A stretch of DNA of 37,292 nt from a virus. This document shows positions 16 through 24,589 of this stretch, piece after piece; within the stretch, counting starts at the first letter, position 1, and each line of letters opens with the position of its first letter. The stretch lies in the IMG/VR virus record IMGVR_UViG_3300006947_000033, positions 1-37,292 of that record. One strand, written 5' to 3'. The position numbers and the translations under genes are program-made. The notes beneath the pieces are model-generated. The model saw only the letters and a list, made by a program, of their open reading frames with translations. It did not search any database and was not told the origin of the DNA.

Positions 16-345
16 ATGAGTGAATATACGCCAGACAACTGGGTAGTACTAAAGATCAAAGAAGGCAAAGGCACATTCCCTTTCTACAAAGTATTAGGAG
101 GATGGAGTGGTGGTTACTTAGGTGGTGACAGTTGGCGAATGAACAGCGGTGTTACCCAAGTTAAAGAAGATGGTGACTACTATGAATTCTATGGCGAAAG
201 TGGTTCTTGTTATAGATGCCACAAAGAAGTTTATGGTTTGCGTATGAATAACGCAGGCGTCTATAATCAGTTAAGAGAACAACAGCAATTCGAAGGGCAA
301 GTACAAATGATGCCCGAAGATACTGATTGGAGTAAACTACTATGA
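16..345 (+). CDS. hypothetical small phage protein
   Basis: Protein of 109 aa; I do not recognise the family. An ATG at position 1 is in frame, but the GGAG at 7-10 lies five bases before the ATG at 16 and makes that the likely start. The product is soluble and rich in Gly and Tyr in its first half, with a C-rich patch (SCYRCHKE) that could bind metal. It overlaps the next gene by ATGA at 342-345, which suggests translational coupling. Function unknown. Confidence 0.7.
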   Translation: MSEYTPDNWVVLKIKEGKGTFPFYKVLGGWSGGYLGGDSWRMNSGVTQVKEDGDYYEFYGESGSCYRCHKEVYGLRMNNAGVYNQLREQQQFEGQVQMMPEDTDWSKLL

Positions 346-509
346 GACGTGGTGAGAAAAGTTTGGAAGTAAGAGCAAAGCAACACATCTCTATTTGTTG
401 TAAGACTCTCTGCGAGAGAGAGATAGTAGAAGAATACATCAATCAATTAGAAGAGAGAGTAAAAGAACTTGAGAAAATGGTGGAGAATCTGGGCAAAGAG
501 TCTAGGTGA
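342..509 (+). CDS. small coiled-coil protein
   Basis: A 55-aa protein starting in the ATGA overlap with the upstream gene. Its N-terminal half is basic with three cysteines (ICCKTLC). Its C-terminal half (about residues 28-50) is Glu/Lys rich with heptad-like Leu/Val/Ile spacing, so a short coiled coil is likely. No family recognised. Its 3' end overlaps the next predicted gene in another frame. Confidence 0.55.
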   Translation: MRRGEKSLEVRAKQHISICCKTLCEREIVEEYINQLEERVKELEKMVENLGKESR

Positions 510-6513: not shown

Positions 6514-7965
6514 ATGGCAGCATTACAGAAAGCAGATTTCGAAAAGCAGGCGTCAGGTGGCACCTACGCAGGAAAGACTCGCCACGAAATCTTCGCTCTC
6601 AAGATAAATGACAATAAGAAGTTCATCGTAGGTAATACCGAAGCGGGCAGAAAGGTCACAGGTGTTTCATACGAGTATAATCCTCGCGACACAAATCAAT
6701 CTGGTACATTAACGTACTACATTCACAATAAAAAAGAACTCCTAACAGTATCCAATAGAAAGATATTTAAAGATGGAGACTTCGGAGGTGGTTCGGCAGG
6801 TTCTGGCGGTGGCGCTGAAGTGACTAAGTTTACTGAGTCTACACAGTGCTACTATTGTGCCTATGTGTTCAAGCATGGACGTAAGATCGATATGAAGAAA
6901 CCTCTTACTACTGATGAACTCAAATCATGTGAGAATCTGGTATATGCATCTAAGTCACTCGACGATTGTATCAAGAAAGGTCCTGCCGCATGGTTCGAAG
7001 ACCAGATATACGCTAAGACTGCTAATGCAATGTTTGAAAAATATAAAGGCAAGTTCAAGGGTACTGTATACTTTCATCGTTCTGGTGATGGCAGTAAGTC
7101 TAAGTTGATGGACAATATCTATCAAGCGAAGTTGATTTGTGCTAGAAAGGATCGACAGTCTGGTGAACCTCAAGCACCTGGCAGTTTCTCTAATGACAAA
7201 TGGAATCCTGGTGACATATGGGCAACAACATTACCTAACGAAGCAAAACCTCTGCACGACTTCACAGATTCTTGGGGTGAACTTAATGATGCAGTGGCAA
7301 GACTAAGTGGTGCTTTCGGAGGCGATGCTAAGATTCTAGGCATATCTCTGAAGAGATTGTCAGGAATGGGTAAAGTACAAGAGTTCAATATTCCTGGCAC
7401 CAAGACATTCGATGATATCTCATTCTCACATTTTACCTTCGGTCAAATCAATAACTTCTTCTCATCTACTGATGCCTACTTGTATACAGCAGTACAGGGC
7501 AGAATGCAGTTAAGAACATTCTCTACTACATCATCTTGGCAGGGACAGATTACTGGTGCGGCGGCAGCAGGTGGTAAGATCGGTGGTGGTAACCTAGCAT
7601 TCTATCTAAATCTGGTCACTAAAGGTAGAGTTAAGATGTTCGGTGCATTAGGAACTGAAGACATTCTCATCAGAAATGAAATAAATAATAATACTAAATA
7701 TAGTAATGATTTCTATAAGTTGTATGTTAATTTAGCGAAAAGTTCTAAGAACCTAAGGCAAGAAGTGCCGATGTCCGAAGTAGAGTTTGATAAGAAACTC
7801 AGTCAAGCGACAGATGGTTTTAGAGTATCAAAATACATTACCAGTAGATTCATAAATGAGTTAATAAAACTACCTGCCAAAGAGCAGAACGAGATAATGA
7901 CTTTGTGCTGGTTGTATGCATCTTCTGCAACAGACCAATCTAGTTATTATATAAAAATAGCATAG
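6514..7965 (+). CDS. putative virion structural protein
   Basis: A 483-aa protein, the first gene behind a late promoter box, so probably a structural or assembly protein. Residues 1-90 look strand-rich, followed by a Gly/Ser linker (GGGSAGSGGGAE, about 91-102). A CYYC pair occurs around residues 112-115. The central part contains WNPGDIWATTLP and FGQINNFFSSTDAYLYTAVQGRMQLRTFS-type stretches, as seen in uncharacterised proteins of T4-like marine phages. A Gly/Ala-rich ITGAAAAGGKIGGGN segment precedes a helical C terminus. I cannot assign a T4 counterpart. Confidence 0.7.
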   Translation: MAALQKADFEKQASGGTYAGKTRHEIFALKINDNKKFIVGNTEAGRKVTGVSYEYNPRDTNQSGTLTYYIHNKKELLTVSNRKIFKDGDFGGGSAGSGGGAEVTKFTESTQCYYCAYVFKHGRKIDMKKPLTTDELKSCENLVYASKSLDDCIKKGPAAWFEDQIYAKTANAMFEKYKGKFKGTVYFHRSGDGSKSKLMDNIYQAKLICARKDRQSGEPQAPGSFSNDKWNPGDIWATTLPNEAKPLHDFTDSWGELNDAVARLSGAFGGDAKILGISLKRLSGMGKVQEFNIPGTKTFDDISFSHFTFGQINNFFSSTDAYLYTAVQGRMQLRTFSTTSSWQGQITGAAAAGGKIGGGNLAFYLNLVTKGRVKMFGALGTEDILIRNEINNNTKYSNDFYKLYVNLAKSSKNLRQEVPMSEVEFDKKLSQATDGFRVSKYITSRFINELIKLPAKEQNEIMTLCWLYASSATDQSSYYIKIA

Positions 7966-7990
7966 AAGGTCCTTAAAGAGGGTAATACAC

Positions 7991-8197
7991 ATGTCACACA
8001 TAGTTAAGAAATATAGTCAAGACAACTTTATAACGAATAGGTTGGGTATCCCTCCTTTCGACAATGTTAATCTATCTTATGATTCTTCGGATAACGTAAG
8101 TCTCATTGTCTTTACAAGAGATACTGGAACTGTCGCCAAGGTACTGTACAGTTACGATTCTGCTGAAAATATAACCAACATAAAGCGAACAGTATAA
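7991..8197 (+). CDS. small putative virion protein
   Basis: A 68-aa protein with GAGGG about ten bases before ATG. It has a repeated strand pattern: YDSSDNVSLIVFTRD followed by LYSYDSAENIT, suggesting a small beta-sheet domain, as in phage tail or neck accessory proteins. It sits between two putative virion genes and overlaps the next by TAATG. Specific role unknown. Confidence 0.6.
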   Translation: MSHIVKKYSQDNFITNRLGIPPFDNVNLSYDSSDNVSLIVFTRDTGTVAKVLYSYDSAENITNIKRTV

Positions 8198-9279
8198 TGG
8201 CAGTCATAAAAACCCAGATCATTAATTTCGAAACAGGTGAAGTGACTAACTCTGGTTTCACAGCAAGAAAGACTCAGGTTGTTAAAAGAAGCACTGGCCC
8301 ACTTGATGTAGATACGGTGACTCCTACAGTTATACCTGAGATGTCTCTTGCTGTGCCAGCGGCGACATATCTGGTAGAATTTAATGGACAGTTTAGCGTA
8401 GAGAACACTTCTAGTTATACTTTAACCGCAAAGAACGAGTTGACTACATTATATAATGCGCTTACTGCATTATCTGCTACAGTGGCAGATCATGCTGCCA
8501 CTTTTGGTAATGGTGAAACATTATCCTCAGGTGTTTATACTATAACGGGTGCTGCCAATGTTACTGGCACATTAACACTTAATGGTGACGCTAACGATCT
8601 ATTCGTATTTCGATGCACAGGCGCGTTTACAACTGCCGCATCATCTAATGTAGTATTGACTGGTGGTGCAGTTGCCGCTAATGTTTGGTTTGTTGCACAA
8701 GGTGCTCCCAGTACTGGTGCAAATAGTACAATGAGAGGTAACATGATTGCAAACCAAGCGGCGCCTAGTCTCGGTGCTGGTACAATCATGGAAGGTCGTA
8801 TGTTTGCAATTAATGGCGCCGCGTCACTGAATGCTAGTACTATGACTACACCCTCAGGAACTAGTACTGTAACTGTCGGAACGTCATTAGCAGGGTTCTC
8901 TATCTTCGCAGGTATTGGTAATGTATCTAACAGCGGTGCTAGTGTACTATCTCTGAGTGTCGGTACAAATGCTGGTGCTGTAACTGGATTTGATCCTGCT
9001 GACGTTTCGAAACCTCTTTATTCAGGTGGTTCTGAGACCATAGGCAAAATCTATTATGGTATATATTTAGATGGTGTCATTGTGGCGGACTCATTACGTA
9101 ATACTACACACAAATTTGTAGCAGAGGGTAGCGAGTTTCCGTTAATACTGCAAACTGTTGTTGCAACAACCCCCGGTCAAGTAGTTGATGTTAGATGTTA
9201 TGCGTCGATCGGAGAAATGAAAATTTGTCCTGAGAAGTCCTTTATCCTGGCACCAATTAATCCTGCTGTATATAACTAG
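8197..9279 (+). CDS. virion-associated protein with DUF3494 ice-binding-like domain
   Basis: A 360-aa protein. Residues about 75-218 match the DUF3494 ice-binding fold: an L-x-x-x-Y-x-x-L-x-x-x-A helix (82-100), then LSSGVYTITGAANVTGTLTL (109-128), LFVFRCTGAFTTA (135-147), NVWFVAQG and the solenoid rungs MRGNMIA and MEGRMFAINGAASL, ending at TMTTPSG. The N-terminal 50 residues (AVIKTQIINFETGEVTNSG) are a separate strand-rich part, perhaps the virion anchor. Residues 225-350 form another beta-rich domain. There is no signal peptide. The TAATG overlap with the 68-aa gene and the upstream late box suggest a late structural gene. Ice binding itself is not shown; the solenoid may be reused as a tail or head decoration. 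Confidence 0.85.
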   Translation: MAVIKTQIINFETGEVTNSGFTARKTQVVKRSTGPLDVDTVTPTVIPEMSLAVPAATYLVEFNGQFSVENTSSYTLTAKNELTTLYNALTALSATVADHAATFGNGETLSSGVYTITGAANVTGTLTLNGDANDLFVFRCTGAFTTAASSNVVLTGGAVAANVWFVAQGAPSTGANSTMRGNMIANQAAPSLGAGTIMEGRMFAINGAASLNASTMTTPSGTSTVTVGTSLAGFSIFAGIGNVSNSGASVLSLSVGTNAGAVTGFDPADVSKPLYSGGSETIGKIYYGIYLDGVIVADSLRNTTHKFVAEGSEFPLILQTVVATTPGQVVDVRCYASIGEMKICPEKSFILAPINPAVYN

Positions 9280-9294
9280 TAATAAAATAAAAGG

Positions 9295-9322
9295 TTGACA
9301 ACCAGTACCAGTATGTTATAAT
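9295..9322 (+). promoter_or_regulatory. sigma70-type promoter with extended -10 (P5)
   Basis: TTGACA at 9295-9300 and TATAAT at 9317-9322, spacer 16, TGT before the -10 box. It lies between a late-type gene and the block with capsid-targeting-like leaders. Confidence 0.86.
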
Positions 9323-9354: not shown

Positions 9355-9651
9355 ATGAAGTCATTTAAGACACATCTTGAAGAATCCACTAAAGTAAAGT
9401 GGAATAAAGTTGCTGACGGATACGTGAATAAAAGGATGGTGTACAAACACGTTACTTCTGATGGTATGTATCAAATACGTATATCTGGTGCTGATTCTAT
9501 GAAATTTAATAAAGATGGCAGTCAGAAAGTGATGCCTACAGTCTTTGATATGCATCCAGCATCATATAGTCCAAGATACCCTGTTAGCGGTTATAAGAAT
9601 GTTACTATAGCGAAAGCAGAAGTTGAAAGGTGGATTGCTGATCATGAATAA
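9355..9651 (+). CDS. small protein with capsid-targeting-like leader
   Basis: A 98-aa protein beginning MKSFKTHLEES, the first of a series in this block whose start resembles the T4 internal-protein leader (MKTYQEFIAE-type); this one is a weaker match. GAGAG precedes the ATG. The rest is a small basic alpha/beta domain (WNKVADGYVNKRMVYKHVTSDGMYQIRISG) ending in a helix. It overlaps the next gene. It could be a minor head protein (inference); no family recognised. Confidence 0.68.
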   Translation: MKSFKTHLEESTKVKWNKVADGYVNKRMVYKHVTSDGMYQIRISGADSMKFNKDGSQKVMPTVFDMHPASYSPRYPVSGYKNVTIAKAEVERWIADHE

Positions 9652-10873
9652 TTTTAAAGAGTTCATTACAGAAGCGGCACAAAAGAACACCCATATGACT
9701 CACATCGAAGATAAGGTCATCTACGGTGGTGCTAATGGAACTCGTCAAGCAATCAATGCTCTTCGTGAGTTAAGAGATATGCTTGGCGGTAAGAAAGAAG
9801 GTTCTGTATCAGTCAAGTGGGACGGTGCGCCAGCAGTATTTGCCGGTACTGATCCCTCTGACGGTAAGTTCTTTGTTGCTAAGAAAGGCATCTTCAATAA
9901 GAATCCAAAGATATACAAGACTGATGCTGACATCGATGACGATACATCTGGTGATCTCAATGACAAACTAAAACTTGCATTGAAGTACTTACCTGAACTT
10001 GGTATTAAAGGAGTCATTCAAGGCGACTTTCTATACAAGCGTTCTGAACTAAAGAAGAAGAAGATCGGCACAGAAACATATCTTACCTTTCACCCTAACA
10101 CAATCGTGTATGCAGTACCCGTAAAACAATCTAAAGAACTACTTGCTTCTAAAATAGGCATTGTATGGCACACTACATATACAGGTAGTTCTTTTGAAAC
10201 TATGAGCGCATCATATGGTGTTGATGTAAACAAAATGAAAAAGTCAACGAACGTCTGGTCACAGGATGCTATATTGCGTGATGTGTCTAATGCTACGATG
10301 ACTAAAAAAGAAACGGATGAAGTAAATGAAACTCTATCACAAATTGGCAAACTTTTTAACCAAATCTCTGGAAGCACTCTTCGAGTATTATCCTCTAACC
10401 CAGGACTTGCACAGACAATCGAGACCTTTAATAACACCTACGTTAGACGAGGAGAAGTTATTGGAGACTCCAAAAAGCACGCCGAAAAACTCATCGCCTA
10501 CATCAACCAAAAGTACCAAAAAGAAATCGACAAGCGTAGCACCGAAAAAGGCAAAGGCGCCCAAAAAGCGAAGCGCGACGAAATCCTCAAGTTCTTCAGC
10601 AAAGAAAACAAAATAAGTCTCATTAAGATGTTTGAATTGCAGAAATTGATTGTTTTAGTTAAATTAAAACTTATAAATAACCTTAATAGATTAAGTAATA
10701 TTGGTGCGTTTGTTAAAACTAAGAACGGATACAAGACTACTGGTCAAGAAGGTTATGTTGCAATAGACACACTTGGTGGTGATGCGGTGAAATTGGTTGA
10801 TCGTATGGAGTTTTCATACAACAACTTTTCACCTGATATATTAAAAGGATGGGATAAACCAAAAGGTAAATAA
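9644..10873 (+). CDS. ligase-like nucleotidyltransferase with capsid-targeting-like leader (DUF6267-like)
   Basis: A 409-aa protein. The frame is open from 9623, but the ATG at 9644 gives the leader MNNFKEFITE-AA, nearly identical to T4 internal-protein leaders. Downstream, V-K58-W-D-G61 resembles motif I (KxDG) of ATP-dependent RNA/DNA ligases, with K58 as candidate adenylated lysine. GVIQGDFLY (about 129-137) fits the later E/Q-G-[ED] motif, followed by FHPNTIVYAV. I recall such proteins as DUF6267 in T4-like marine phages. The C-terminal third is Lys-rich and helical. Bases about 10440-10610 use many C-ending codons, unlike the AT-rich stretch right after. Ligase activity is inferred from motifs only. 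Confidence 0.78.
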   Translation: MNNFKEFITEAAQKNTHMTHIEDKVIYGGANGTRQAINALRELRDMLGGKKEGSVSVKWDGAPAVFAGTDPSDGKFFVAKKGIFNKNPKIYKTDADIDDDTSGDLNDKLKLALKYLPELGIKGVIQGDFLYKRSELKKKKIGTETYLTFHPNTIVYAVPVKQSKELLASKIGIVWHTTYTGSSFETMSASYGVDVNKMKKSTNVWSQDAILRDVSNATMTKKETDEVNETLSQIGKLFNQISGSTLRVLSSNPGLAQTIETFNNTYVRRGEVIGDSKKHAEKLIAYINQKYQKEIDKRSTEKGKGAQKAKRDEILKFFSKENKISLIKMFELQKLIVLVKLKLINNLNRLSNIGAFVKTKNGYKTTGQEGYVAIDTLGGDAVKLVDRMEFSYNNFSPDILKGWDKPKGK

Positions 10874-20724: not shown

Positions 20725-22368
20725 ATGAAACCCACTATAGCATTGTATGAGGGTCATGATACTAATCTAACAGTATATGACCCTAATACCGACTCGTTCT
20801 ACATATATGAATTTGAACGTGTTTCAGGTATTAAACACCACAACATAAAAAACCGTAAAGGTAGCAATGGTTTATCTACCAGCGCAAATGTTCAATATCT
20901 ACAGATTATTCTGAATCATCTTAAAGAAGTTCATGGCATTGAAAATGACTTCGACACATTTATCTTCAAACCCATTTGGTGGAATGTGTCATACATTGAC
21001 CGCAGTATTATCAATTCAGACAAAGAGATTTTACCAGTCATCGATCACCATGATGCTCATGCATGGTGTGCATATGGACAAGCACCTGAATCGTTCGAGA
21101 ACACTGCTTGTATAACTTATGATGGTTGGGGCGATAACACCGCATTCAAGTACTCGTGTTTCAAAGGCATCAATCGACATTCAGTTGAACCCATGTGTTA
21201 TAATTTCTCGATGGTCTACACTGCTATGGCACACTCTCTCAAGATATTACATGGTACTATGGATCTTGATCTCCCGGGTAAACTAATGGGATTATCTGCA
21301 TACGGTGAAGTGAATCGCACGTGGTCAGATATAATGAAAGATTCTATCAAATCAGACTGGTGGAAATATAAACTAAGCAATGAAGCAGGATCTAAACCAC
21401 CTGTCACCTGGGACGACTCACAAAATCCATTACTTGTGATGAGAAAACAGATCAATCCGTGTATTCAGACAACTGATTATAACATAAAACTAGAGAACAC
21501 TAAAGCATTCGCACTCGCTAGTTCTGCGCAGATTGCATTCGAAGAAGGTATCGTCGAAACTATTAAAGAAGAGTTCCTTGATAAGATTGAAGCGCACGAT
21601 AACAATCTGATAATATCTGGCGGTAGTGCATTAAATGTTCTTGCTAACGAAGCAATCAAACGTGCATTTCCTGATGTCAACATATACATCCCACCAAACT
21701 GTCATGATGGCGGTCTAAGTTTTGGTATGTTATACGAACATCTAAAGACTACTAAGAAATACGATGTCACTCAATCTGGTCCAAGAATATTTGATTACAA
21801 ATATATGGATCCGATGATTAAACTATACGGCGCAAAGAAAGTCAGTATTAATGATATTGCAGACTTACTTAAAGAGCAGAAGATAATAGGGATGGTGATT
21901 GGTAACATGGAAGTAGGACCGAGAGCATTGGGTAATCGTTCTATACTATGTGACGCATCTAATCCTAAGATGAAAGACACCCTCAATTGTCGTGTTAAGT
22001 TCCGAGAGTGGTTTAGACCTTTCGCTCCTATATGCAGAAAGGAAGATGCACCTAAGTATTTCTACTCACCAAACTTTGATAACATGGAATGCATGCAATT
22101 CGTCGCGGATGTGTTGCCAGAGTATCAAACTAAACTATTCTCTGTAACACACTACGACAATACTGCCAGACTTCAGGTGGTGACGGAGGAGAGCAATGCT
22201 GCAATCTATGACATACTGACAGCGTTCGATGGAGTACTAATAAACACTTCCTTGAATGTTCAAGGTAAACCTATTCTAAATACCTTTGATGAAGCATTTC
22301 ATGTTTTACAACAGACAGGCCTAGACCATATAGTGGTAGAGTATGAAAATGATTATTGGTTATTCTAA
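20725..22368 (+). CDS. carbamoyltransferase, NodU/TobZ family (copy 1)
   Basis: A 547-aa carbamoyltransferase. The N-terminal Kae1-like half shows H11-D-T-N, the metal-binding H108-H109-D110-A-H112 and the D-G-W-G-D-N nucleotide loop (133-138). The C-terminal YrdC-like half contains the family block N-M-E-V-G-P-R-A-L-G-N-R-S-I and F-R-P-F-A-P. Family members make carbamoyl-AMP from carbamoyl phosphate and ATP and transfer the carbamoyl group to a hydroxyl. Phage relatives have been linked to carbamoylated hydroxymethylcytosine; sugars are the alternative substrate. A second copy lies at 22841. Confidence 0.92.
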   Translation: MKPTIALYEGHDTNLTVYDPNTDSFYIYEFERVSGIKHHNIKNRKGSNGLSTSANVQYLQIILNHLKEVHGIENDFDTFIFKPIWWNVSYIDRSIINSDKEILPVIDHHDAHAWCAYGQAPESFENTACITYDGWGDNTAFKYSCFKGINRHSVEPMCYNFSMVYTAMAHSLKILHGTMDLDLPGKLMGLSAYGEVNRTWSDIMKDSIKSDWWKYKLSNEAGSKPPVTWDDSQNPLLVMRKQINPCIQTTDYNIKLENTKAFALASSAQIAFEEGIVETIKEEFLDKIEAHDNNLIISGGSALNVLANEAIKRAFPDVNIYIPPNCHDGGLSFGMLYEHLKTTKKYDVTQSGPRIFDYKYMDPMIKLYGAKKVSINDIADLLKEQKIIGMVIGNMEVGPRALGNRSILCDASNPKMKDTLNCRVKFREWFRPFAPICRKEDAPKYFYSPNFDNMECMQFVADVLPEYQTKLFSVTHYDNTARLQVVTEESNAAIYDILTAFDGVLINTSLNVQGKPILNTFDEAFHVLQQTGLDHIVVEYENDYWLF

Positions 22369-22381
22369 GGAATTATAACAG

Positions 22382-22837
22382 ATGTGGAATATGAATGAAA
22401 GTGTATTCGAACCCAGCGAAGAGTTTTTAAAAGACTATGTTGGATTTGTGTATCGTATCACTGAGATAGATACAGGTAAGATGTATATAGGAAAGAAGTT
22501 CTTCTGGAAACCCAAGACACTGCCTAAGAACTCTGTACGTAAAAGAAAGATAAAAATGAAAGTTCCTTCGGACTGGCAGAAGTATTATGGTTCGAGTGAA
22601 CATCTATTAGAGTCAATCAAGAGAACTGGCGTTGATAACTATCACCGTGAAGTTCTAAAGTTATGCACAACTAAAGGCGAATGCTCCTACTATGAAGCAA
22701 AGTTACAATTTGAATACGATGTCCTACTCGACGAACAATACTACAATGCGTTTATCGGTTGCAAAATACACGCAAAGCATTTGCCCAAACCCGCTATCGA
22801 AATACGAACAGCAGAACCTTGGTTCAATAGACCTTAA
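22382..22837 (+). CDS. GIY-YIG domain endonuclease-like protein
   Basis: A 151-aa protein with a GIY-YIG-type core: G21-F-V-Y24 then M-Y35-I-G37-K-K near the N terminus, followed by a basic insertion (KPKTLPKNSVRKRKIKMK), D-W-Q-K-Y-Y-G-S-S-E and the C-S-Y-Y-E-A-K-L-Q helix with its conserved Glu. Closely similar proteins are frequent in T4-like marine phages and are annotated as Seg-like or GIY-YIG endonucleases. It sits between two carbamoyltransferase genes, so it may be a mobile homing gene or a resident nuclease. Confidence 0.82.
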   Translation: MWNMNESVFEPSEEFLKDYVGFVYRITEIDTGKMYIGKKFFWKPKTLPKNSVRKRKIKMKVPSDWQKYYGSSEHLLESIKRTGVDNYHREVLKLCTTKGECSYYEAKLQFEYDVLLDEQYYNAFIGCKIHAKHLPKPAIEIRTAEPWFNRP

Positions 22838-22840
22838 ACT

Positions 22841-24589
22841 ATGAGGAATCTAATCGCCGCTAATTGGGGTCATGACGCCTCACTATGTTTCTGGAATGAT
22901 GTTGCAAAAACATTTCATACTATTGAGATAGAAAAACTTGTAGGTATAAAACACTACAGAGGTCACGCACGTAAGGATGAAGAACTAGAGATTCTTAAAA
23001 GGTGTGCTAAGATAGCAGAAGAAGAGTTTGGCATACCCAACGACTATCACTGCATCATTCGTGGCAATCTATTGAACGATATCAAGAAAGAACAGATTGA
23101 AAATGGCACGGGTCGTTTGACAGATAATAAAGTTTCTGATGATATGATGCTCGATGTTGATAACATTAATGCTGTATTTAATACTAAGAATATTGATATT
23201 ACATATCGACATCATGAAGCACACGCATGGAATGGATTCGCTCCTTCGGGATTCGACAAAGCAGTCATACTTACTATGGATGGTGGTGGTAACGATGGGT
23301 TCACTCATTTGTTCACTGCTGAAAATCCTAATAAACCTCTGACAAGTCATACACGAATACATGGAGTTCAAGCGCATGGCAGAAACTATACTCAGGCATG
23401 CCTATGGTCGTTATACAGTATAATGCAAAGCACCGACTGTTCGTTAGATGTTGCGGGTAAAGCAATGGGAGCATCGTCGTACGGAAACACTGAAAGCGAT
23501 CCCTATTCGACTGCAACGAAACTGTTTATGAGAAGTACGACCGCTTGGAATAACTTTAGTCCTGGCAGAATGCTGTACGAGAAACATTACAACCAAACTT
23601 TGAAAGACGGTACTAACAGTAAGATTAAGTTTATCGAAGCGTTTAGTACTTCGCCTGAAGTGTACAATCCCTATAAACTATTTGTGGATGAGATTGATTG
23701 GCAAACAGAATGTGATATGGCAAGAGGCATTCAAGATGCGTTTGTTAAAGATGCTATAAAATGGTTCAAAGAGATTATGAGGGTTAGAAACGTAAACCTA
23801 GATGACTACGACAGAAATGTGGTGTTCTCTGGTGGTAGTGCGTTAAATGTGCTGTTCAATGATATACTACAGCGAGAGATGAATATCAATCTATTCGTAC
23901 CGCCTAATCCAGCAGACCAAGGAATTCCCTACGGTATGCTAGTGCAATGGATGGTCGATCATGCTACACAATACTCGCGTGAAGAAACTACGTACTCTGG
24001 TCAAAAGATACAAGACATGGAGGACTTACAGAAATATTATCATTCACACAAAGGCAGAATGACAACTATTGCAGATGTAGCAAGCATACTGAAAGATGAT
24101 AAGATTGTCGGACTCGTGCAAGGTGGCATGGAAGTAGGTGCGAGAGCGTTAGGCAATCGTTCTATACTTGCTGATCCAAAGGGCGCAGATAAGAAAGACA
24201 AAGTTAATGCAGTAAAGAGACGCGAAGCATACCGTCCGTTCGCGCCAGTATGTAGATTAGAAGATGTAGAGACTTACTTTGACTCAGTTCGTTATGACAA
24301 TCTATCTTATATGAATTTTGCGATAAAGACTCGTGAAGAACATATAGATAAGTTAAGAGCAGTTACTCATGTTGATGGGACAGCAAGAGTACAGACAGTT
24401 ACTAAAGAACAGAATACAATACTACATGATTTATTAAGTGAATTTGATGGTGTATTATTGAACACTTCTTTCAATGTGAAAGGATCTCCAATACTAAATA
24501 CACTTAAAGAAGCGTTCTATATGCTTGACGAAACCACACTCGATCATCTGGTAGTAGTAGATGAACATAACACAATATGGATTTTTTAA
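22841..24589 (+). CDS. carbamoyltransferase, NodU/TobZ family (copy 2)
   Basis: A 582-aa paralogue of the protein at 20725. It keeps G-H11-D-A-S, H124-H125-E126-A-H128 (Glu instead of Asp) and M-D-G-G-G-N-D-G (147-154), with the YrdC-like half marked by G-G-M-E-V-G-A-R-A-L-G-N-R-S-I and Y-R-P-F-A-P. It is longer by 35 residues and clearly diverged, so the two copies may use different acceptors. No good ribosome-binding site is visible; translation may depend on the upstream gene, three bases away. Reaction as for copy 1. Confidence 0.92.
   Translation: MRNLIAANWGHDASLCFWNDVAKTFHTIEIEKLVGIKHYRGHARKDEELEILKRCAKIAEEEFGIPNDYHCIIRGNLLNDIKKEQIENGTGRLTDNKVSDDMMLDVDNINAVFNTKNIDITYRHHEAHAWNGFAPSGFDKAVILTMDGGGNDGFTHLFTAENPNKPLTSHTRIHGVQAHGRNYTQACLWSLYSIMQSTDCSLDVAGKAMGASSYGNTESDPYSTATKLFMRSTTAWNNFSPGRMLYEKHYNQTLKDGTNSKIKFIEAFSTSPEVYNPYKLFVDEIDWQTECDMARGIQDAFVKDAIKWFKEIMRVRNVNLDDYDRNVVFSGGSALNVLFNDILQREMNINLFVPPNPADQGIPYGMLVQWMVDHATQYSREETTYSGQKIQDMEDLQKYYHSHKGRMTTIADVASILKDDKIVGLVQGGMEVGARALGNRSILADPKGADKKDKVNAVKRREAYRPFAPVCRLEDVETYFDSVRYDNLSYMNFAIKTREEHIDKLRAVTHVDGTARVQTVTKEQNTILHDLLSEFDGVLLNTSFNVKGSPILNTLKEAFYMLDETTLDHLVVVDEHNTIWIF

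Follow-up and report, generated by a model that had tools for sequence, protein, structure and literature searches.

A putative phage recognition tip: circularly permuted DUF3494 solenoid within a predicted TNF/C1q-like jelly roll

Closest described systems

In canonical DUF3494 ice-binding proteins such as 5uyt, a helix accompanies a beta-solenoid and an N-terminal rung sequence is present, and these elements are also found in the protein considered here, P0001, encoded in the 37,292-base IMG/VR virus record IMGVR_UViG_3300006947_000033 (hereafter the window, i.e. the whole stretch analysed). Unlike in 5uyt, however, the rung of P0001 lies behind the solenoid, the unit is inserted in another domain, there is no leader and Thr/Ser are fewer at the mapped ice-face positions. 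Regarding this other domain, the Photorhabdus lectin PLTL (9ib7) and the N-terminal domain of the Burkholderia lectin BC2L-C (6tid) are jelly rolls like P0001, with 120-124 residues aligned, from which P0001 differs by an identity of about 15% and an insert of about 200 residues in one loop, the likeness concerning the predicted fold. The same base fold occurs in the cyanophage A-1(L) short tail fibre (8ke9) and in BFVD Caudovirales proteins labelled 'C1q domain containing', and no clear full-length match to the chimera appeared among the BFVD matches listed. As for the complete chimeric domain, it is also present, at 27-35% identity, in secreted Bacteroidota proteins encoded in tandem gene arrays (L099, L100 and L101), which, unlike P0001, start with a leader-like sequence, have a further region ahead of the domain and belong to cellular genomes.

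In the literature, three Arctic viral units with PF11999 have been related to possible host cryoprotection, with polar-skewed homologues (PMC11515562), one antifreeze protein has been described in Southern Ocean viruses (PMC8407431), and PF11999 has also been found in substrate-binding proteins from many habitats (PMC12337378), as far as the accessible text of these three sources goes. Synechococcus phage S-SKS1, named as a homologue in the accessible text of PMC11515562, gave no PF11999 match at E <= 1. Within open-licence PubMed Central, no paper combined DUF3494, ice-binding protein and phage, and in the accessible portions neither the permutation nor the fusion with a jelly roll nor a role as a tip was described. 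The accessible part of the eCIS fibre catalogue (PMC12923769) lists no ice-binding tips, 'ice-binding' appearing there in the title of a reference.

Domain matches, predicted structure and chain order

The sole Pfam-A family matched by P0001 in hmmscan is PF11999 (Ice_binding/DUF3494; 101 bits, E 9.1e-29, for a curated cut-off of 28.7), residues 59-216 corresponding to profile positions 43-207 of 208, and the PHROGs profiles gave no family. A phmmer search of PDB sequences yielded 25 distinct sequences at E <= 1, with 5uyt as the best (E 4.7e-37), all of them ice-binding, antifreeze or DUF3494 proteins, including 6bg8, which is named 'Ig domain protein'. A preliminary description of this DNA, made from the letters alone, had proposed a DUF3494 ice-binding fold at 8197-9279, and this call stands because of the Pfam and PDB sequence matches, with model superpositions reaching Z 20.1; the motif segments it quoted were located at residues ~109-148 and, as it had also stated, direct reading of the N-terminus reveals no signal-peptide-like hydrophobic stretch.

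While folding from the single sequence gave a pLDDT of 33 only, the AlphaFold model built from a 23-row alignment has a mean pLDDT of 86.3 and a pTM of 0.77, with 220 of the 360 residues at 90 or above and residues 1-25 poor. Structure prediction had been suggested as a check on the beta-solenoid, and a helix-braced discontinuous beta-solenoid is seen in the model at residues 73-224. In VIA-align, P0001 73..224 superimposes on 5uyt_B with Z 20.1, 38% identity and an rmsd of 1.4 for 151 residues; for the remaining ice-binding entries listed, Z is 16.8-18.9 (25 listed entries in total, including 5uyt). Residues 26..356, split around the insert, superimpose on the TNF-like lectins PLTL 9ib7 (Z 15.1, rmsd 2.0, 120 aligned of 133) and BC2L-C 6tid (Z 14.8, rmsd 2.6, 124 aligned), and also on BxpB 8d02 (Z 13.9), BclA 1wck (Z 12.4), a C1q domain (4ous, Z 12.2), the phage phi812 spike (9eul, Z 12.2) and the cyanophage A-1(L) short-tail-fibre domain (8ke9, Z 12.0). 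Foldseek concurs on the ice-binding proteins and ranks the jelly-roll entries weaker (E ~0.006 and up). In sequence searches of Pfam and PHROGs, where HMMER filters drop weak matches, no C1q/TNF family was obtained at E <= 10, residues 1-75, 223-360 and 261-360 being searched apart. The extra N- and C-terminal regions of the preliminary description thus exist but are not two separate add-ons, as in the model residues ~26-70 and ~280-356 appear as the halves of one TNF/C1q-like jelly roll with DUF3494 inserted between them (Table 1). Being made on a predicted structure, these matches would speak for the fold only and are silent on the ligand.

Within the insert, PF11999 profile positions 1-42, i.e. 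the N-terminal rung, are missing before the helix of P0001 and reappear at residues ~225-277, and in the phmmer alignment with 5uyt, residues 227-269 of P0001 also match the N-terminal segment of an ice-binding unit. Comparing residues 224-284 of the 28-row family alignment with 90 canonical N-terminal segments, hhalign returned a probability of 97.7 (E 1.7e-12, 52 columns), for at most 0.5 with four other family segments used as controls. When single sequences were scored with a canonical N-rung profile, built without the jelly-roll segments of the permuted family, 18 of the 28 members reached at least 15 bits, all behind the solenoid; the other 10 scored -0.7 to 8.2, no higher than the best shuffled copy (any match in 405 of 1,400 shuffled controls, maximum 9.7). 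In Pfam, P0001 and the protein of another viral record, L088, match PF11999 only from profile position 43, while of six other viral DUF3494 proteins in the same comparison, five begin at profile position 1 and one (L095) has two stretches, the best starting at 9. Judging from these profile alignments, the DUF3494 chain order in P0001 appears to be helix, solenoid, then N-terminal rung, the canonical order not being kept. Regarding its origin, tandem ice-binding units such as those of 5uyt may have offered a ready register-shifted unit composed of a helix, a solenoid and the next rung.

Table 1. Features of the P0001 locus (positions in the window)
Feature	Position	Strand	Basis or remark
phrog_1462 gene, upstream neighbour of the cassette	6514..7965	+	one distant relative annotated 'virion protein'
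Swapped cassette	7966..9285	+	in near relatives, 274-aa phrog_8198 protein (L003) or its 3' end (L002)
68-aa partner gene	7991..8197	+	stop overlaps P0001 start by one base (TAATG); same overlap in L300
P0001, chimeric virion-type protein, 360 aa: predicted TNF/C1q-like jelly roll with inserted, apparently circularly permuted DUF3494	8197..9279	+	
P0001 residues 1-25, N-terminal lead	8197..8271	+	pLDDT mostly <50; similar start in L300 homologue
P0001 residues 26-70, predicted jelly roll, first half	8272..8406	+	model range 26..356 on TNF-like lectins; alignment
P0001 residues 73-224, DUF3494 helix (74-91) and beta-solenoid	8413..8868	+	Pfam; VIA-align to 5uyt_B
P0001 residues 225-277, putative DUF3494 N-terminal rung behind solenoid	8869..9027	+	hhalign
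P0001 residues 280-356, predicted jelly roll, second half	9034..9264	+	alignment, model
DUF6267/phrog_455 gene, downstream neighbour	9623..10873	+	profile matches

Cassette exchange and relatives in phages and Bacteroidota

The carrier of P0001 is a virus of marine-type bacteria, in which neighbouring genes match phage families, namely ribonucleotide reductase subunits, PhoH, a cytidyltransferase, DUF6267 and two NolO-like carbamoyltransferases; the latter two genes flank, at 20725-24589, an ORF matching phrog_447 and homing-endonuclease families. Related phages were located via the DUF6267/phrog_455 gene, which has relatives in 463 records among named phages, mostly cyanophages, Phage C48C1 (Kyanoviridae, 67.6%) being the closest, and, of the 80 DUF6267 phage loci, none of the 49 searched whole, most of them fragments, had a PF11999 match. 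Two viral records, L002 and L003, share 93% DNA identity with the window downstream of the cassette. In L003, identity is 86% until the upstream gene stops (7965) and sets in again at 9286, the 68-aa ORF and P0001 being replaced in between by a 274-aa phrog_8198 protein (8.8e-56), while the L002 record begins inside the same phrog_8198 gene. The slot is variable in other relatives as well, with 27 ORFs matching the 274-aa protein at E <= 1e-3 in the set of loci compared, that protein included. P0001 therefore occupies a variable cassette slot, exchanged at gene edges.

The 68-aa gene and P0001 form a cassette that recurs in one other phage. In that record (L300), the P0001 homologue is 49% identical over the full length, N-terminus included, and is preceded, with the identical single-base overlap, by a gene for a 66-aa protein homologous to the 68-aa product (38%, pairwise E 2e-15). 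The gene neighbourhood of this 6.2-kb locus differs from that of the window, none of 44 window proteins tested, beyond the pair, matching there at 1e-5, and the viral scan yielded no relative of the 68-aa protein, its homologue standing only beside the P0001 homologue of L300. Since both genes and their overlap are kept in a different neighbourhood, the pair is a conserved, apparently mobile unit. The late promoter assumed in the preliminary description is not supported, as the T4-type motif TATAAATA occurs three times in the window for a chance mean of 2.6, and its nearest occurrence upstream of P0001 (6485-6492) precedes a gene two genes upstream. Directly behind P0001, an exact sigma-70-like consensus (TTGACA-16-TATAAT, 9295-9322, + strand), with TG preceding the second hexamer, is retained in L002 and L003 and would drive the gene at 9355.

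With P0001 alone as the query, no close relatives were found in viral_contigs, genome_contigs or 50,697 phage records, and a plasmid search gave solenoid-only matches, full-length relatives being reached only with alignments as queries. A four-row core alignment matched 10 viral and 80 bacterial loci, and a 17-row alignment 72 viral loci, of which 12 have the full-length chimeric domain, 3 no family-profile match and 57 a portion of the domain, in most cases the solenoid. Searches of whole records confirmed the full-length domain in 12 of 12, one with two tandem copies (two genes at 6722-8942 of L195), and a later scan added L300 and L301, which brings the chimeric domain to 14 viral records besides the window, or 13 different cases because L199 and L200 encode an identical protein. 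The L088 ORF, for instance, matches P0001 over 55-352 with 33% identity (E 1e-28 for the pair). In Bacteroidota, MAGs encode the full-length domain in arrays of ~460-aa genes (L099, L100 and L101); full-length matches occur in 3 of 299 Flavobacteriaceae genomes (any match at 1e-25 in 4 of 299) and in at least 3 of 395 Bacteroidota genomes, counting at most the best five candidates per genome, while 30 of the 395 have any match at 1e-20, most of them solenoid only. In a tree of the chimeric domain (28 rows, 334 columns, L300 and L301 left out), P0001 pairs with L193 (100/100) and the bacterial rows group together with one phage row (L194) beside them; although this tree needs two phage/bacteria label changes, a single clade of all phage copies is not rejected (AU p 0.125). 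Besides, canonical DUF3494 domains occur in pairs within long viral ORFs of L096, L237, L258-L260 and L262.

In several phages, the chimeric domain ends a fibre-like protein, a layout of stalk and C-terminal tip seen in L193, L196, L199, L202 and L203, P0001 itself having no stalk. In L193, it is the C-terminal part of a 724-aa ORF adjoining two ORFs that match tail-fibre family phrog_9729, in a locus that also has a gene in common with the window (54.5%) and a weak DUF6267 match, and L202 has it C-terminal on a similar long ORF. In L196, it sits on a collagen-like stalk matching tail-fibre family phrog_6320 (2.8e-32). The stalk preceding it in L199 and L203 is common to cultured Oceanospirillum and Shewanella phages bearing another C-terminal head, the L199 stalk (residues 1-183) matching proteins of Oceanospirillum phage vB_OsaM_PD0307 and Shewanella phage SppYZU01 with different C-terminal parts. 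Regarding gene context, the chimeric gene of L203 is flanked by portal (1.2e-65), head maturation protease (3.8e-53), head decoration (8.7e-12) and major head protein (8.3e-51) genes, that of L201 comes after the genes for head protease and major head protein, and that of L088 immediately upstream of a tail sheath gene (phrog_165, 3.1e-93). Of note, DUF3494 is also found inside tail-sheath-like ORFs, in L097 (1-4344, phrog_2839 6.9e-24) and L204 (4294-7155, phrog_279 1.7e-25), where the solenoids may decorate the contractile sheath.

Recognition, ice binding or decoration

The computed fold, permutation, insertion, recurrence on fibre-like proteins, slot swap and conserved gene pair are best explained by P0001 being located on the virion surface, with its folded part acting as an exchangeable tip for recognition, and this is quite probably the case. 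The placement of P0001 on the virion is based on its relatives and its slot, because the protein has no stalk and is unmatched in 50,697 phage records. TNF/C1q-like jelly rolls form trimers in known members. The jelly roll of P0001 would accordingly be the trimeric base of the tip, with the permuted DUF3494 beta-solenoid projecting from one of its loops. The permutation would put the two ends of the insert at an internal junction of canonical DUF3494, such that the domain fits into a loop, and up to three solenoids could stand around or above the trimer with their flat faces outward. The tip would most likely serve adhesion, its target being a glycan on the host surface or some other solid surface, and the 68-aa partner would probably aid the anchoring or assembly of P0001. 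The preliminary description had left the choice between an ice-binding decoration and reuse of the solenoid as a receptor-binding or decoration module; the latter is now better supported, as the same domain ends stalked fibre-type proteins and adjoins capsid and tail genes.

That the solenoid still binds ice, as a virion decoration tethering particles to ice crystals or blocking recrystallisation around them, is suggested by the fold match to many proven ice-binding proteins and, in the accessible text of PMC11515562, by the Arctic viral units with PF11999 and their polar-skewed homologues. It was approached through three AnpIBP ice-face segments, as listed in the accessible text of PMC7277481, which were mapped via the phmmer alignment onto 11 positions of P0001. 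At these approximately mapped positions, the 28 family rows have Thr 0.07, Ser+Thr 0.12 and Ala+Gly 0.69 (the 12 phage rows Thr 0.11, Ser+Thr 0.17 and Ala+Gly 0.64), against Thr 0.21, Ser+Thr 0.41 and Ala+Gly 0.36 in 75 canonical relatives, a set in which ice binding is unproven. The comparison is weak because column 188 is mostly gap in the canonical set and column 190 looks inward-facing. Small flat residues are retained (AGST 0.81 in the family, 0.77 in the canonical set), which favours ice, yet Thr and Ser are depleted and replaced by Ala and Gly, which does not, and neither does the presence of PF11999 in substrate-binding proteins of many habitats, as given in the accessible text of PMC12337378. 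For habitat, the six IMG metagenome numbers looked up led to no paper. All in all, ice binding by P0001 is unlikely.

Protection of the infected host cell from freezing is how phage PF11999 genes have been read in print, namely for three Arctic viral units in the accessible text of PMC11515562, and a canonical form that would suit it does exist: the viral contig L180/L250 encodes a canonical DUF3494 protein that starts with a hydrophobic leader, has a C-terminus rich in Pro/Ser and would be a likelier secreted ice-binding protein. P0001, however, has no leader, its domain is part of a fusion with a jelly roll, and with stalks in relatives, and it stands in a swapped virion-type slot, its relatives being among head, fibre or tail genes, so that an auxiliary gene of this kind is very improbable here. 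DUF3494 proteins are also predicted in BFVD for the giant virus Hyperionvirus (A0A3G5A745 and A0A3G5AEI1). A structural decoration, i.e. a stabilising or spacing domain with no ligand, would suit the solenoids within the tail-sheath ORFs of L097 and L204, where a spacer or decoration role is plausible, as well as the copies of L199, L203 and L201 located among capsid genes; the C-terminal position on fibre-like stalks, the swapping of tips on a common stalk and a jelly roll nearest to lectins argue against it, and such a role is improbable for P0001.

Returning to the recognition tip, it is somewhat more likely than not that the permuted antifreeze-type solenoid in the loop of a TNF-like lectin fold constitutes a new recognition module, traded between surface proteins of Bacteroidota and tailed phages of unrelated kinds (T4-like phages, contractile-tailed ones whose gene order is Mu-like, and capsid-fibre carriers), phage 'ice-binding' genes listed today as host cryoprotection then being at least partly virion adhesion tips that may bind glycans, particles or ice. 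PF11999 matches in viral metagenomes should accordingly not be read by default as the host cryoprotection genes proposed in the accessible text of PMC11515562, because 12 of 72 viral DUF3494 loci are chimeric, besides the two in tail-sheath-like ORFs. A surface-binding fold that is naturally both circularly permuted and inserted into another such fold is unusual; in the present case the arrangement recurs and is common to phages and bacteria. For phage biology, this would add an exchangeable tip of a new type; for work on ice binding, it would offer a lineage whose solenoid seems to have escaped its usual chemistry and could serve to test what a DUF3494 face must have to bind ice.
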